Source: a virus
DNA length: 64,000 nt
Direction: 5' to 3' (one strand)
Virus record (IMG/VR): IMGVR_UViG_3300005337_000003
Coordinates: 62,001-126,000 of that record
A model generated the notes under the pieces. It had not been told where the DNA came from. It made no database searches and saw only the letters and a list, made by a program, of their open reading frames with translations. Below, in pieces: positions 18,068 to 44,033 of this stretch. Both the position numbers and the translations under genes were made by a program. The stretch's first letter is position 1. Every line of letters starts with the position of its first letter.

Positions 18068-19726
18068 TCACAAACGAGACAATCCACTCCGTATGATCAG
18101 CTCATATAGTTCAGAGGCCCAATTCGAAGCCGAAAACTTGTCCCAGGCCAACTTAAATCCATTCTCAGCTATACTATTGCGTACGTCTGGATTTCTATAC
18201 AAAAAGTCAAGGGCTTGGGTCAATTCGTATTTGTTCCTGTAGTAAACACAATGATACATGTCCATGAAATACTTTTCGATACCTGGAAATACCCGCATAA
18301 GGGCACAACTGCCGGCAGCCATGGCTCCCAGGTTACGAGGAGTAAAATAATCCTCTACATCCCAATAATTATTCTCACAAATTACCGCATACGATTCATT
18401 ATATAATTTGGGGGTTTCACGAACGGGTAATACACCATTAACAAATCCTGATCCATAAAAAACAACCTGAGTCGGGTAATTAGCCTTCACCAACTCATAA
18501 ATTTCCTTACGACTCTCACCTCCAGGAAGATGGCTGTAGAGGTTGCCTGCGTATGCTATTTTACCCTCTTGCAGCTGTTGATTGGGTAAAAACCTCCAAC
18601 TCTGGATAGGCTCCCATATAAATTCGCATGGCTTGTTCAGGATTCTTCGATATACCTGGCGTTGTTCCCCGCTGAAGGGCACCAGGTAGAGATCCACTAT
18701 CGGTTGGAATTCAATAAAGCTTTGGGATGGGAAAGGGGAATAATCGCCGGTCCACATAACAAAAGAGGCGCCGGTTTGTTCCTTTAGGATACGACAGTGC
18801 TCCATGTACATAGATGCCTGGTATAGTATCGTATGGGGCTTAAAATCAATTGCCTTCTGTAGGTCACCATCAAACAGGAACACATTATACTTTTCCGATA
18901 AGGCCCGGCTCAAATCCCCAAAATATCCATCATCCGAAATATGCAACTGGTAGTCCATGGGGATCCATAAAAGATTCTGCCGTACTTCCTGTTCCGGAAT
19001 CGCCGTGTAATTAAAGCGCGGGTGATCCTTAAGGTAATCAGGCATCTGTAATTTATCATAAACCATAGGCTCTCCCCATAAGTCAGGATATACCGGATGC
19101 AGATCCGTATCTTCATTTCCGGGAGTCCAGGCCAGATATTTAGACATATAATTCTTACGTATCTCGGAACTATGAGAGAAAGTGCTCAACTTGTATCGGA
19201 TAGTCTTCAGGCTTTGTGCCCAGCCAAAATGAAGCACTGTACCACTCAACAACTCTGTGTCGTCTGCCATAGCTACTACACGTTCCAATCTTACCGGGTG
19301 CTGATCATCCGCGTAGTAATGCTCCCAATCTCTAAAAAAATGCATGAACCCGGCCACTTTATAATACCGAGCCTGCTTAGATTCCAATTGCTCCAGCAGT
19401 TTTTTGGGTTCCAAATATATCTCATCGGCATCGATACGGAATATCACATCGAAGTCGGCAGAATGTTTATACCTCTCACTTATATGCTCTGCTTCCGAAC
19501 CAAACCGATCGTGGGCCTCCCAAATCAGCTTATGGCCTAGAACTTCTGAAGCGATCTTAAATATTTGAGCTTCCGTATCAGGACAAGTGAGGTTAGCCGA
19601 AAACCCAAAGGATGGCTGACGACTATAAGCAATGTGGAATTTATCAACCACACCGTAAACGCTGATTAATGCCTCTCTTAAAAGTTCAGCTCCGTAATGA
19701 ATGGCACAAAACCCAAGTACTTTCAT
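18068..19726 (-). CDS. two-domain glycosyltransferase (GT-A plus CgeB-like GT-B)
   Basis: 552 residues. Residues 1-225 are a GT-A type domain with RIDADE (97-102) as the metal/nucleotide-sugar DxD motif; they match the 243-residue protein at 21193 along their length (CPDTE, VVDKF, VLGxKLxW, DxDE in the same order). Residues about 255-552 look like a CgeB-type glycosyltransferase: FVMWTGDYSPF, IAYAGNLYSH, YTPRNLG-like segment with NLGAMAAGSCALMR. The enzyme could add two different sugars. ATGA overlap with the small gene upstream. Last enzyme of the cassette before the fibre genes. Confidence 0.8.
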   Translation of the reverse strand: MKVLGFCAIHYGAELLREALISVYGVVDKFHIAYSRQPSFGFSANLTCPDTEAQIFKIASEVLGHKLIWEAHDRFGSEAEHISERYKHSADFDVIFRIDADEIYLEPKKLLEQLESKQARYYKVAGFMHFFRDWEHYYADDQHPVRLERVVAMADDTELLSGTVLHFGWAQSLKTIRYKLSTFSHSSEIRKNYMSKYLAWTPGNEDTDLHPVYPDLWGEPMVYDKLQMPDYLKDHPRFNYTAIPEQEVRQNLLWIPMDYQLHISDDGYFGDLSRALSEKYNVFLFDGDLQKAIDFKPHTILYQASMYMEHCRILKEQTGASFVMWTGDYSPFPSQSFIEFQPIVDLYLVPFSGEQRQVYRRILNKPCEFIWEPIQSWRFLPNQQLQEGKIAYAGNLYSHLPGGESRKEIYELVKANYPTQVVFYGSGFVNGVLPVRETPKLYNESYAVICENNYWDVEDYFTPRNLGAMAAGSCALMRVFPGIEKYFMDMYHCVYYRNKYELTQALDFLYRNPDVRNSIAENGFKLAWDKFSASNWASELYELIIRSGLSRL

Positions 19727-19926
19727 TCTTTTTTGCCTTGTGATTTATAAAATGTATCTGCGGTGTATAAGGCGCGAGTGATCAACTCGTCAGCTATGGA
19801 AATATTTTTAGAGGTGGCTGTCTCAGAAATAGAAGCGTAAGCCATTCCGTTTCCATATACTCCGTTCAACATAGCTATCAATACCTTAATAGCCAGTTCT
19901 TCCTTTTTTTCTGATAATTCACTCAT
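19723..19926 (-). CDS. small protein in the glycosylation cassette
   Basis: 67 residues, helical (ELAIKVLIAMLNGVYG, then ADELITRALYTADTFYK). ATGA overlaps on both sides. May be a small partner of the glycosyltransferases; no family recognised. Confidence 0.7.
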   Translation of the reverse strand: MSELSEKKEELAIKVLIAMLNGVYGNGMAYASISETATSKNISIADELITRALYTADTFYKSQGKKE

Positions 19927-20627
19927 TGTTTTAGTTTTTCTATTTTAGCTTGCATCATATCACGGACTGTCGGCCATTCTTCTTTATCTTGCTCAATAAC
20001 CCAATCTATTCCCTTTATAGAATAAATAGTACTCGATCCCTCATGGAAAGATTTAAGTTTGTCATACATCACTGTGGGGAAGCCAAGTTCTCGACATATC
20101 GAATATATCCAGTTATCTCCGAACCAGACCTTGATGTTTTTAGGTATGGGGTATACGCAGTGGGCATGCTGCCTGTTTAAAAATATAGCTATTCCTGGAA
20201 ATCCTTCTGGGATCCACCTGTGCATATCAGATAAAAGATAATCTATATCGTGGAAAATTTCTTCCTTATTAACCTCTGTGGGAATAGGTACATAATTGGG
20301 GTATACCATCCAGAATTTTTGTAAAGCTCCTACAAAATCACGATGCAATATAATGTCAGAATTCAATATTCCCAAGTGCGTGTACTGCTCATTATTAATA
20401 AATTCCTCCAAGAAGAAATTCCAGGCAGGATTCACATAAATATTCTCAGGCCTATCTACAATCTTGACATTGGGTAGATCCCTGTAATTATCAAATAATA
20501 TCTGTATTTCTTGGTTGTAACCATTAGCAAATAACATCACATCCACCGGGTGGTGAACAACCGACTCTATGCATTGTCGTGTAACATGCGGATTATTAAC
20601 TATAGGGATGCACAATAGAAGTTTCAT
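19923..20627 (-). CDS. glycosyltransferase, GT-A (family 2-like)
   Basis: 234 residues. It starts with a family-2 type strand and helix (LLLCIPIVNNPHVTRQCIES) and has a metal-binding motif GILNSDIIL (NSD at 89-91). GFPGIAIFLNR and WFGDNWIY fit the acceptor side. Likely uses a nucleotide sugar to glycosylate a virion protein or a phage sugar chain. Coupled by ATGA to the methyltransferase gene. Confidence 0.75.
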   Translation of the reverse strand: MKLLLCIPIVNNPHVTRQCIESVVHHPVDVMLFANGYNQEIQILFDNYRDLPNVKIVDRPENIYVNPAWNFFLEEFINNEQYTHLGILNSDIILHRDFVGALQKFWMVYPNYVPIPTEVNKEEIFHDIDYLLSDMHRWIPEGFPGIAIFLNRQHAHCVYPIPKNIKVWFGDNWIYSICRELGFPTVMYDKLKSFHEGSSTIYSIKGIDWVIEQDKEEWPTVRDMMQAKIEKLKQ

Positions 20628-21196
20628 ATCTTATTTACGCACTCCTTAAACTCATCTACCGTAATTACAGTCATCACTGGTGTATTTTTTCGATTAGCCT
20701 CATACCAGGCCCAATCAAATTTTGACATGTCCAGATTCGAACCCACAGGCTCGTGTCTGGGGAAAATCAATCCACATCCTTGATCGGTATCGATAATGAA
20801 CATGACATCTTTACTTATCTCCTTTAATGCTGCCCATGCCTTCCAGCCATCTCCGTTGAGATAGGGATTCTGATGCTCTTCTGTTGGCGGTAAAAGATCA
20901 TGAACCATAACTATGCCTCCAGGACACACCTTGTAAGCGTTTAATATATCTTTAGCTACCTGATCCGATCCGTGCCAGCCATCTATAAAACAAATGTGAA
21001 ATTGCTCCTGGTTATGAGCAAAGAATTGATCGGACGTCATCTTATGCGTAGCTGCGCTACCAATATCGGGGTCTACGCCTACTTTGTAATCGCAGCTTAT
21101 CTGGCTGAAGCACTCTCCCCACTGTACTCCTATTTCAAGGTACTTTTTAGCTCCCAGCTTGTCAATAAATAACTGTAGTATTTCCCAACGTTTCAT
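20624..21196 (-). CDS. class I SAM-dependent methyltransferase
   Basis: 190 residues. YLEIGVQWGECF (19-30) is the glycine-rich SAM-binding motif, GVDPDIG (40-46) the acidic second motif, and CFIDGWH (69-75) with GGIVMVHDLLPP (93-104) are the third and fourth segments, as in the Methyltransf_24 type. In a run of glycosyltransferases the likely substrate is a sugar hydroxyl. ATGA overlaps on both sides. Confidence 0.8.
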   Translation of the reverse strand: MKRWEILQLFIDKLGAKKYLEIGVQWGECFSQISCDYKVGVDPDIGSAATHKMTSDQFFAHNQEQFHICFIDGWHGSDQVAKDILNAYKVCPGGIVMVHDLLPPTEEHQNPYLNGDGWKAWAALKEISKDVMFIIDTDQGCGLIFPRHEPVGSNLDMSKFDWAWYEANRKNTPVMTVITVDEFKECVNKI

Positions 21197-21924
21197 CGTA
21201 TTATCTCCTTATTATAGTTAGGGTGCAGTTTCAAAAAATCTGGAAGAGTGGTCTTATCGAAGGGTGTTGTGGTTTGCCAGATTTGACGTGACACAGGGTG
21301 TAGCCATTCTGCTTTCTCGTTGAGCCAATTGTCGTAAATGACTTTCCATTCGGGACGTAATTCCGAACGATGGCCTGATAGGCGCCATTTATACTCGGCT
21401 ATCTGGTCACTTTGTGCGTATGAAAAATGATAGACTGTTAGGTTGACTTCTCCCTGTCCGGAATTTCTTCGCAGATTAAAGAAGCGAATGGGCCTGAAGC
21501 CATCTGTGCAAACCTCATTAAATGAGCGCCAAAAATTGAGATAACCTGCCACGCCATAGGCTCTATAAGGACCTTCATATACTTCATCTAGTACTCTGGA
21601 TAAGGCCCCAGGATGGAAGACCTCATCTGAATCTACAGCAACTAACACGTCAAATCCGGCAGCGTGAGCAAATGCAGCATCCCGGTGTTGACCTTCAGAC
21701 CTGTAAACCGCATGATCCCACACCAACTTAGAACCCAAAACCCTGTAGGCAATATCATAGAGCTCACCCTCTGTGTCTGGACAAGGAATATCTGTACTGT
21801 ATCCCTGCGAACCTACAGGTGTGTAGAGTACTACAAACTTGTCTACTACAGCTTCTACACTTTTGAGGGAGGCCTCTAAATACTCTTTGCCGTAGAGGAT
21901 CGGCATATATCCGATTACTTTCAT
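21193..21924 (-). CDS. glycosyltransferase, GT-A, paralogue of the 18068 N-domain
   Basis: 243 residues. Same order of conserved segments as residues 1-225 of the 552-residue enzyme: MKVIGYMPILYG, VVDKF, CPDTEGE, LGSKLVWD and the metal motif VDSDE (97-101). Probably a nucleotide-sugar dependent transferase. The duplication suggests two similar acceptors or donors. ATGA couplings on both sides. Confidence 0.78.
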   Translation of the reverse strand: MKVIGYMPILYGKEYLEASLKSVEAVVDKFVVLYTPVGSQGYSTDIPCPDTEGELYDIAYRVLGSKLVWDHAVYRSEGQHRDAAFAHAAGFDVLVAVDSDEVFHPGALSRVLDEVYEGPYRAYGVAGYLNFWRSFNEVCTDGFRPIRFFNLRRNSGQGEVNLTVYHFSYAQSDQIAEYKWRLSGHRSELRPEWKVIYDNWLNEKAEWLHPVSRQIWQTTTPFDKTTLPDFLKLHPNYNKEIIR

Positions 21925-22526
21925 TTATATTGATTCATTACTTGTTTAACTTGTTCTGGTGTTAACCATTTATCTATCGCGTGGTAGGTCAAAGTCCCCA
22001 GGCTAAATACAGACTCTATTCCCCATCTAAGGCAAACATCTCTGGGCGCTAAATTGCCCAGGTTATGGTAGTACATTGTATTGCAAAAATACACATCCTC
22101 ATTTATATTCTTCCAGGGGTGGTTATTAATTACCTGCAGCATGACATTAGGATCTCTTAAGCTGAGGCCTCCGTTACCTCCCCGAGCCTGGAACCCCCAA
22201 GGGGCACCAACATAGGAGTATTCAAAAAAATCCTGTATACCAAATCTCAGGAACCCGCTATCGCTTTGAAAAATCAATACCCGATCATAATTTATATACT
22301 TTTCCCAAAAGGCAACAGAGGTTAACAATCGGTTGTATCCGCCTAACTCAGAAATCTCGCACTCAAAAAAAGTAGCTTCAGGAAACAAGTTAGACCATTC
22401 CCGTATCTTCGAACCTGTAGTCCATATCACCAGATCGTGATTGTAATCAATATAGTCCCTGTGACGATTAATCACAGGAACTATATCTACATTGCGTGTT
22501 TCTACGATTGTTAAACAGAGCTTCAT
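21921..22526 (-). CDS. DUF5672-type putative glycosyltransferase
   Basis: 201 residues. RVLIFQSDSGFL (82-93) followed by YVGAPW (105-110) and GGNGGLSLRD (116-125) are the signature segments of the DUF5672 family, thought to be glycosyltransferases. NEDVYFCNT (around 140) is a further conserved acidic site. First enzyme of the cassette. The ATG lies 2 nt after the TAA of the upstream frame. Confidence 0.75.
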   Translation of the reverse strand: MKLCLTIVETRNVDIVPVINRHRDYIDYNHDLVIWTTGSKIREWSNLFPEATFFECEISELGGYNRLLTSVAFWEKYINYDRVLIFQSDSGFLRFGIQDFFEYSYVGAPWGFQARGGNGGLSLRDPNVMLQVINNHPWKNINEDVYFCNTMYYHNLGNLAPRDVCLRWGIESVFSLGTLTYHAIDKWLTPEQVKQVMNQYK

Positions 22527-22528
22527 TG

Positions 22529-22789
22529 TTACATCAAATTAGCTGCAGAGGTATATATTGCGGTACCGACAGTGGGTTCTACATAATCTGAAAACCCTTT
22601 AGTTCCGATGCCTCCTCCGTATTCAAATTTCATTCCGCCTCCACAGGCACCTGTAATTCCGCTACTTGCGACCCTTCCGTGGGAAGTGAATTCATCAGAA
22701 ATCACTTGGAATTTATTTAAAAGTGGAGAACTCTTGTATTTATCATCGTTATCCCTTAAACCTGCAGATAACGATGTTGCTAAAAAGGG
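22529..22789 (-). CDS. 86-codon frame reached by a possible -1 frameshift
   Basis: Open frame without a start codon at its 5' end. It begins in the -1 frame relative to the 70-residue gene upstream, exactly at C CCT TTT TAG, and runs to TAA at 22529. Composition is protein-like, with several glycine-rich turns (GACGGGMKFEYGGG). In-frame starts exist only late (ATG leaving about 33 residues; a GTG earlier). If read by frameshift it extends the small protein to about 155 residues. It fills an otherwise empty 250-nt gap in a packed operon. The alternative is a non-AUG start or non-coding leader of the cassette. Confidence 0.45.
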   Translation of the reverse strand, partial: PFLATSLSAGLRDNDDKYKSSPLLNKFQVISDEFTSHGRVASSGITGACGGGMKFEYGGGIGTKGFSDYVEPTVGTAIYTSAANLM

Positions 22790-22992
22790 CGAACGGCCAC
22801 CTCCACCTGATCCAGCTGCTCTTTATAATTGACAGGGATATTCATGGCAGCGGCCATTGATGCGCTGTGTTGACTAACAGAAAGTATTGTACTTAATTCT
22901 ACAATTACCTTCGATTTAAGTCCTTCTTCTTTTTCCTGCTTGTCAGTAGGATGCCACAGGATCACATACTGAAATAGTTGTTGTTTTGTCAT
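22780..22992 (-). CDS. small conserved phage protein ending in VRPF
   Basis: 70 residues. MTKQQLFQYVILWHPT at the start and IPVNYKEQLDQVEVAVRPF at the end recall a short protein found in many phages, where the last residues are also hydrophobic-R-x-F. So termination at the TAG may be normal. The slippery heptamer overlaps the last two sense codons. Confidence 0.7.
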   Translation of the reverse strand: MTKQQLFQYVILWHPTDKQEKEEGLKSKVIVELSTILSVSQHSASMAAAMNIPVNYKEQLDQVEVAVRPF

Positions 22993-43172: not shown

Positions 43173-44033
43173 ATGGCTAAAAAAGACAAGAGAGAGCCTA
43201 TTATAGGCTACAAGGTATTTAATTCAGACTTAACGTGTCGTGGATTTCAATTTGAGATAGGTAAGAGTTACAAACACACAGGCGAGTTAAAGATATGTAA
43301 CAGTGGATTCCACTTCTGCCTTAATGCATCACATTGTTTCTCATATTATAGCTTCGACCTTAAAAATGCAGTTTGCGAGGTAGAGGCCCTGGGGGACATT
43401 CAAACACACAGTGAGGATTCAAAAGTTGTGACTAATCACATTAAGATCATCCGTCAGCTGACCTGGGATGAGGTATTAAAAGTTTCCAATGAAGGAACTG
43501 GCAATACTGGACACGGCAACGCCGGTAATGACAACGCCGGTAATCGCAACGCCGGTAATCGCAACGCCGGTAATCGCAACGCCGGTAATTACAACGCCGG
43601 TAATCGCAACGCCGGTTATGGCAACGCCGGTAATGACAACGCCGGTAATTACAACGCCGGTAATCGCAACGCCGGTTATGGCAACGCCGGTAATGACAAC
43701 GCCGGAGCGTTTAACACTACCGAATCATTCAGAATGTTTAACAAGCAATCTAAATGGACATTTGAAGATTTCAGGAAATCGAAAGCATTTGAACTACTAC
43801 ACACAATCGACACGACCATGTGGATAGCCTCCTACCAAATGTCAGAACAAGAAAAGAAGGATCATCCACACCATGTAACAACTGGTGGATATATTAAGAA
43901 CATTCCATTTAAGGAAGCTTTCGTTAATAAATGGAATAATTGGAGTGAATCAAGTCAGGAGGCTTTTAAAAATCTGCCAGGTTTTGATTCTAAAGTATTT
44001 GAGGAAGCCACAGGCGTTAAAGTAAAAAAATAA
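43173..44033 (+). CDS. DUF7666-type protein with NAG pentapeptide repeats
   Basis: 286 residues. Residues 8-110 are a DUF7666-type domain: IIGYKVFNSDLTCRGFQFE, ICNSGFHFC and EALGDIQTHSEDSK. Residues about 112-183 consist of pentapeptides of the form NAGN-x, some 13 in a row, which probably form a beta-helix-like rod. A C-terminal helical part follows. The repeats are 15 nt long, with a perfect 60-nt tandem copy, so length may change quickly. Function unknown; could be a sensor or a decoy surface. Confidence 0.75.
   Translation: MAKKDKREPIIGYKVFNSDLTCRGFQFEIGKSYKHTGELKICNSGFHFCLNASHCFSYYSFDLKNAVCEVEALGDIQTHSEDSKVVTNHIKIIRQLTWDEVLKVSNEGTGNTGHGNAGNDNAGNRNAGNRNAGNRNAGNYNAGNRNAGYGNAGNDNAGNYNAGNRNAGYGNAGNDNAGAFNTTESFRMFNKQSKWTFEDFRKSKAFELLHTIDTTMWIASYQMSEQEKKDHPHHVTTGGYIKNIPFKEAFVNKWNNWSESSQEAFKNLPGFDSKVFEEATGVKVKK
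43515..43705 (+). repeat. 15-nt tandem repeat in a coding region
   Basis: Unit AACGCCGGTAATxxC, about 13 copies with changes mainly in the last positions. A 60-nt segment, 43581-43640, is copied exactly at 43641-43700. The repeat does not break the reading frame because the unit is a multiple of three. Confidence 0.9.

Follow-up and report, generated by a model that had tools for sequence, protein, structure and literature searches.

Comparative evidence for a programmed -1 frameshift at the stop codon of a small gene family shared by diverse phages

To our knowledge, only a few conserved frameshifts of tailed phages are well established, namely those of the tail chaperones and of some coat and tail proteins. 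The tail assembly chaperone gpG/gpGT of lambda-like phages combines a conserved programmed frameshift with a small phage gene and two products, and dnaX and insertion-sequence -1 signals consist of a heptamer, a short spacer and a 3' stem-loop. In T7 gene 10A/10B and other coat and tail proteins with C-terminal extensions, a frameshift near the gene end gives an extended form beside the short one, and related phages may carry an in-frame fusion instead (PMC5009743). The frameshift mechanism itself is already known.

The small gene family described here shares all of these features, including the in-frame fusions, which we found in two contigs (L091 and L094). Unlike the T7 type, its carrier is a 70-aa domain and not a coat or tail-tube protein, and where other coat and tail extensions are Ig-like, its extension is a tether that is predicted to be disordered and that carries a C-terminal motif; a stem directly follows the site. 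Unlike gpG/gpGT, neither the protein of the locus studied nor the scanned relatives have a significant match in Pfam or PHROG, tail assembly chaperones included; the extension is mostly variable in sequence, and the gene is not directly upstream of a tape-measure gene, being followed in several relatives by a clamp loader or other genes. In contrast to dnaX and insertion-sequence signals, the stop codon abuts the heptamer and the site has the form N CCU UUY.

The stretch of DNA analyzed (the window) is 64,000 nucleotides long and covers positions 62001-126000 of the 129,798-base virus record IMGVR_UViG_3300005337_000003, whose terminase is a distant match to those of Bacteroides, Flavobacterium and crAss-like phages. 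The small gene lies on the minus strand (22992-22780), starts with ATG at 22992 and encodes a 70-aa globular domain that ends in VEVAVRPF, followed by TAG (22782-22780). Its 3' end reads GTT CGC CCT TTT TAG, in which C CCT TTT (22789-22783) is a correct X XXY YYZ heptamer directly before the stop, as a sequence-only reading of the window had pointed out. The same reading had followed a -1 frame from CCC TTT TTA to a TAA for 86 residues, a count that holds when made from CCC. The frame reads CCC TTT TTA GCA and ends at TAA 22531-22529; as 84 codons (LATSL...YTSAANLM; 22783-22529 with the TAA) follow the two shared residues PF, the predicted fusion has 154 residues and not the 155 first given, with ...VEVAVRPFLATSLSAGLR as the junction peptide across VRPF-L. 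The frame was rightly said to lack a start near its beginning (ATG, GTG and TTG are absent from codons 1-25, and the first is GTG at codon 28) and to fill a gap that holds no other gene, here the interval up to the following gene (22526). Upstream of the heptamer it extends 11 codons back to a TAA, also without a start.

Alone, the window heptamer is weak evidence, because 20 comparable in-frame X XXY YYZ heptamers lie no more than 12 codons from the stop among the 231 window ORFs of at least 60 aa; its significance comes only from comparison with relatives. Several of the 20 have long -1 frames that resemble frames of other genes. That heptamers of this kind are not rare close to stops in this one genome speaks for chance, that is, for a complete small gene followed by a non-coding frame or a decayed gene. 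We also noticed a Shine-Dalgarno-like GGTGGAGGTGG at 22797-22807 (minus strand), about 7-10 nt 5' of the heptamer and in a dnaX-like placing. It may perhaps be just the codons for QVEV and is not present in AT-rich relatives; unlike in dnaX, a consistent upstream element of this kind is not established here.

Relatives were sought without any requirement for slippery codons. Searching viral contigs with the window protein as a single sequence gave no direct relative, and tblastn returned two records, both of one huge phage (LR756501, 735 kb), whose homologue is 43% identical and ends in CGC CCT TTT TAA. Short and weak tblastn matches to Acinetobacter endonucleases were taken as chance. Profile searches brought in one member from a Bacteroidia MAG and many others from IMG/VR contigs. 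A DNA pattern derived from L-[DE]-x-[VI]-[ED]-[VI]-x-h-R-P-F-stop, with every codon permitted, added further members, some of them GC-rich. With duplicates taken out, the set comprises 38 members: the window and 37 further distinct homologues from uncultured phage contigs, the Bacteroidia MAG and the huge phage. No member was found in plasmids and no additional one in 395 genomes of the MAG's class; the extension alone as a query had no relative by sequence, and Rfam gave no convincing match. The members do not represent one recent lineage, since the identity of their N domains to the window protein is only 30-67%.

All 38 members have R-P-F followed by a stop (TAG in 26, TAA in 7, TGA in 5) at the same place. 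The sequence-only reading had asked whether the heptamer is conserved in related phages, and CCT TTY is present in 38 of 38, a count that, because the members share kinship, does not stand for independent events. The proline codon at the site is always CCT, compared to 49 of 255 (19%) elsewhere in the same reading frames, and the arginine codon is CGC in 28 of 38, compared to 31 of 202 elsewhere in those frames. Phenylalanine is encoded by TTT in 32 members and by TTC in 6, and the third bases of the codons 5' of the site are variable. The strictly invariant element is CCT TTY T, from which it follows that tRNA-Phe can slip from UUY to UUU. The C before CCT is preferred but not required, and would suit re-pairing of tRNA-Pro; 10 of 38 members have another base there, which would make this re-pairing imperfect. 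Judged by these codon counts, the putative slippery heptamer is in the right phase and is conserved beyond protein constraint.

The -1 frame after the site is open in 38 of 38 members, with a median of 63.5 codons, vs. 8 for the readthrough frame and 5.5 for the +1 frame. Its length ranges from 44 to 188 codons, apart from one member with only 17 where the contig ends (L017). Stop-codon readthrough was rejected, as the 0 frame stops again soon (median 8 codons). These results reverse the earlier suggestion that the extension could be unique to the window's lineage, and they qualify the related remark that homologues seem to end at VRPF: the 0 frame does stop there, but nearly all members would shift there into the extension, which is why they seem to end at that point. 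Failure of the second frame to be conserved in relatives had been named beforehand as a sign against frameshifting, as had synonymous and non-synonymous changes in equal measure, and the latter pattern was also not seen. In most closer pairs the extension has a dN/dS of about 0.3-0.6 (0.31 for L058/L063, 0.33-0.35 for L008 or L010 with L021, 0.30 for L014/L016 and 0.57 for L064/L070), which indicates purifying selection, and indels are whole codons; the diverged GC-rich pair L050/L056 gave a value near 1, over a poor alignment.

The middle of the extension varies in length and sequence, with Ser, Thr, Asn, Ala and Gly together making up 51%. Its C-terminal end is conserved and carries the motif Y-x-[NTS]-A-[AS], which in the window lies within YTSAANL (22555-22535, minus strand). 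A looser form, Y-x(0-3)-A-[ASTGN] within the final 22 residues, occurs in 28 of 35 extensions, whereas 2000 shuffles gave 3.6 on average and never more than 11. In a scan of 4534 stop-to-stop frames, each at least 60 codons long and taken from all loci, the stricter form ended no frame other than this extension. One member (L052; 59-592, minus strand) has a different -1 extension of 176 residues, without a Pfam match and without the C-terminal motif. A chance origin is hardly conceivable against an open frame in all members, selected codons and a conserved motif and 3' stem, in homologues too divergent to be one recent lineage. It is also very unlikely that ribosomes translate the -1 frame as a gene of its own, through re-initiation or coupling once the small gene has stopped. 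An overlap of a few bases between that stop and the -1 frame is as seen in translationally coupled genes, and in some members codon 5 of the -1 frame is GTG or ATG, but many, the window included, have no ATG, GTG or TTG in the first 25 codons, and a separate gene would leave the invariant CCT, the canonically spaced 3' stem and natural in-frame fusions unexplained.

RNA folding, proposed earlier as a check for a downstream pseudoknot, revealed a stem-loop but did not support a pseudoknot: in a simple energy test, pairing of the loop with downstream sequence showed no excess (3 of 31 at p<0.05). In the window, a putative stimulatory stem-loop (22776-22744, minus strand) starts 6 nt after the heptamer and has an 11-bp stem, with arms CATCGTTATCT (22776-22766) and GGATAACGATG (22754-22744), and an 11-nt loop (MFE -15.4 kcal/mol, z -3.6, shuffle p 0.010). 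The spacer between heptamer and stem measures 3-7 nt in 34 of 35 members, most commonly 5 nt (18 of 35), and 27 of 35 stems reach p<=0.05 against dinucleotide shuffles; a significant 3' stem is absent in eight (L002, L020, L022, L023, L026, L050, L056 and L066). The strongest stem of all (z -7.5) precedes the 176-residue extension of L052. The mean energy z of 45-nt segments is near -1 only for those that begin between 10 nt before and 0 nt after the stop codon's end; at other positions it is near 0. When the first bases past the stop are paired with sequence no more than 100 nt further downstream, the mean energy is -13.8 kcal/mol, compared to about -7 at other offsets. The arm sequences are unrelated between distant members, and closer members have double compensatory changes (GAGATGAGTTT/AAACTCATCTT in L008, GAAGTGAATTT/AAATTCACTTC in L014). 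Some stems have long loops of 40-67 nt. A second, weaker peak of pairing energy occurs 5' of the slip site, where 10 of 35 members fall below -12 kcal/mol at offset -20 from the stop.

The position of the stem also bears on slippage of RNA polymerase on the T run, which would add a base and bring the extension into frame. In its favor, five consecutive T are present in 32 of 38 members (CCTTTTTRR), but runs of five T are short for efficient polymerase slippage, the run is cut to three T in the six members with TTC, and an RNA stem 3-7 nt 3' of the site fits ribosomal pausing. We regard this explanation as most improbable.

Searching with the pattern but without its stop requirement gave six more contigs (L089-L094), which, apart from one chance match that is not a member (L089), can be viewed as natural experiments. 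L093 (AGC CCT TTT GCG TAA) has its stop one codon later; both the slip site and a strong stem (-22.5) are retained, and its -1 frame runs for about 90 codons with YSAAQ near the end. L092 (CGC CCT TTT CAG GGA AAC TAG) keeps the site with a weak stem and a -1 frame open for about 100 codons. In L091 and L094 there is no stop at the site, the stems are weak (-7.6 and -8.2, respectively) and the extension follows in the same frame. L094 has lost the slip site (AGC CCG TTC), while in L091 (CGT CCT TTC) CCT TTC persists despite the in-frame extension. L090, a distant member, lacks a slip site and its -1 frame is short, so the frameshift trait is not absolute.

Because the slip codons are constrained, the -1 frame is open and selected, the stem is canonically spaced and the extension is in frame in L091 and L094, -1 frameshifting, as the sequence-only reading had proposed, is supported by every comparative test available. 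We estimate the probability of a programmed -1 frameshift with two products at roughly 93%, a judgment made by comparison only. Viewed in the same way, the -1 frame is maintained as the C-terminal part of the protein, together with the slip site and stem. Most ribosomes would terminate after VRPF and release the 70-aa domain, presumably the majority form, and a fraction would be paused by the stem 6 nt downstream. With tRNA-Pro and tRNA-Phe on CCU UUU, these ribosomes would slip back one base, the tRNAs re-pairing to CCC UUU, and would go on in the -1 frame from UUA to append 84 residues. The long product would consist of the same domain followed by a flexible tether, rich in Ser, Thr, Asn, Gly and Ala, that ends in the conserved peptide motif. 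Tandem slippage of these two tRNAs as the exact step is suggested by the heptamer and by published E. coli data, which show that UUY codons are prone to shifting and that more of it occurs on all-pyrimidine motifs (PMC4066793).

The N domain was predicted as beta-alpha-beta-alpha-alpha-beta (AlphaFold2, mean pLDDT 94; the prediction was made with the huge-phage row left out), and comparison of this fold gave no significant match. The extension was predicted to be mostly disordered, with low model confidence over most of its length, and its C-terminal end to be ordered (pLDDT 84-89 in the last two blocks). The window extension has no Pfam or PHROG match, so no Ig-like or other known folded domain was found in it. 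Only in the huge phage (L002) is the extension collagen-like, and there it matches tail-fibre families. In T4-like relatives, the frameshift gene is near clamp loader, sliding clamp and GroEL genes; GroEL-like genes occur near the clamp loader, clamp and frameshift genes in L008, L010, L013, L014, L016, L017, L021 and L023, several of which also have a GroES-like gene. No conserved gene neighborhood accounts for function; neighbors vary between phages, and they are not consistently structural, which counts against a virion role.

Because the huge-phage extension resembles tail fibres, and given the composition of the other extensions, we lean slightly toward a virion-associated domain that is made partly in a tethered form. 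The short protein would then be mixed with the tethered form, whose tether would dock to a partner or be displayed. Somewhat less probable is that the frameshift is real and the long form acts inside the cell, as an adaptor that would recruit a host or phage factor through its C-terminal motif. Such a role would suit the adjoining clamp loader, sliding clamp and GroEL genes of T4-like relatives, and a predicted disordered extension with an ordered C-terminal end resembles tethered docking peptides. It fits less well with the variation of neighbors among phages, with the collagen-like, tail-fibre-like extension, and with the window gene's position between a run of glycosyltransferase-like genes and tail-fibre-like, glycine-rich genes farther downstream. 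The virion domain is the reading we favor over the adaptor.

No prior report of the gene family, its near-universal frameshift or its tether-plus-motif extension was found in the protein libraries or open-access papers searched, and the consulted parts of the PRFect (PMC10885494) and GeneTack (PMC3711429) papers make no mention of the frameshift family. The family spans very different phages, a huge phage among them. Under standard gene calling its proteins stop at VRPF, and the conserved C-terminal part is left as sequence without a gene. We see about even odds that this is a new widespread phage family in which, in nearly every member, a dedicated frameshift sets the share of a tethered form and the C-terminal peptide docks to a conserved partner. 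If so, the partner would be conserved across phages of very different genome size (up to 735 kb) and base composition, and the arrangement could be a general phage tethering or display device, unannotated because gene callers stop at VRPF. With dozens of natural slip-site and stem variants, the family is also a system in which -1 frameshifting at a stop codon could be tested.

Two further observations concern other genes of the window. Directly after the frameshift gene lies a run of glycosyltransferase-like, DUF5672 and methyltransferase-like genes (18068-22526, minus strand; two tested against Pfam), which begins with a DUF5672 protein gene followed by a glycosyltransferase-like gene. Their products could modify the Ser/Thr/Asn-rich extension or other virion proteins. 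On the plus strand, 43173-44033 encodes a protein with many tandem five-residue repeats of the NAG-x-NAG type (GNRNAGNRNAGN...).
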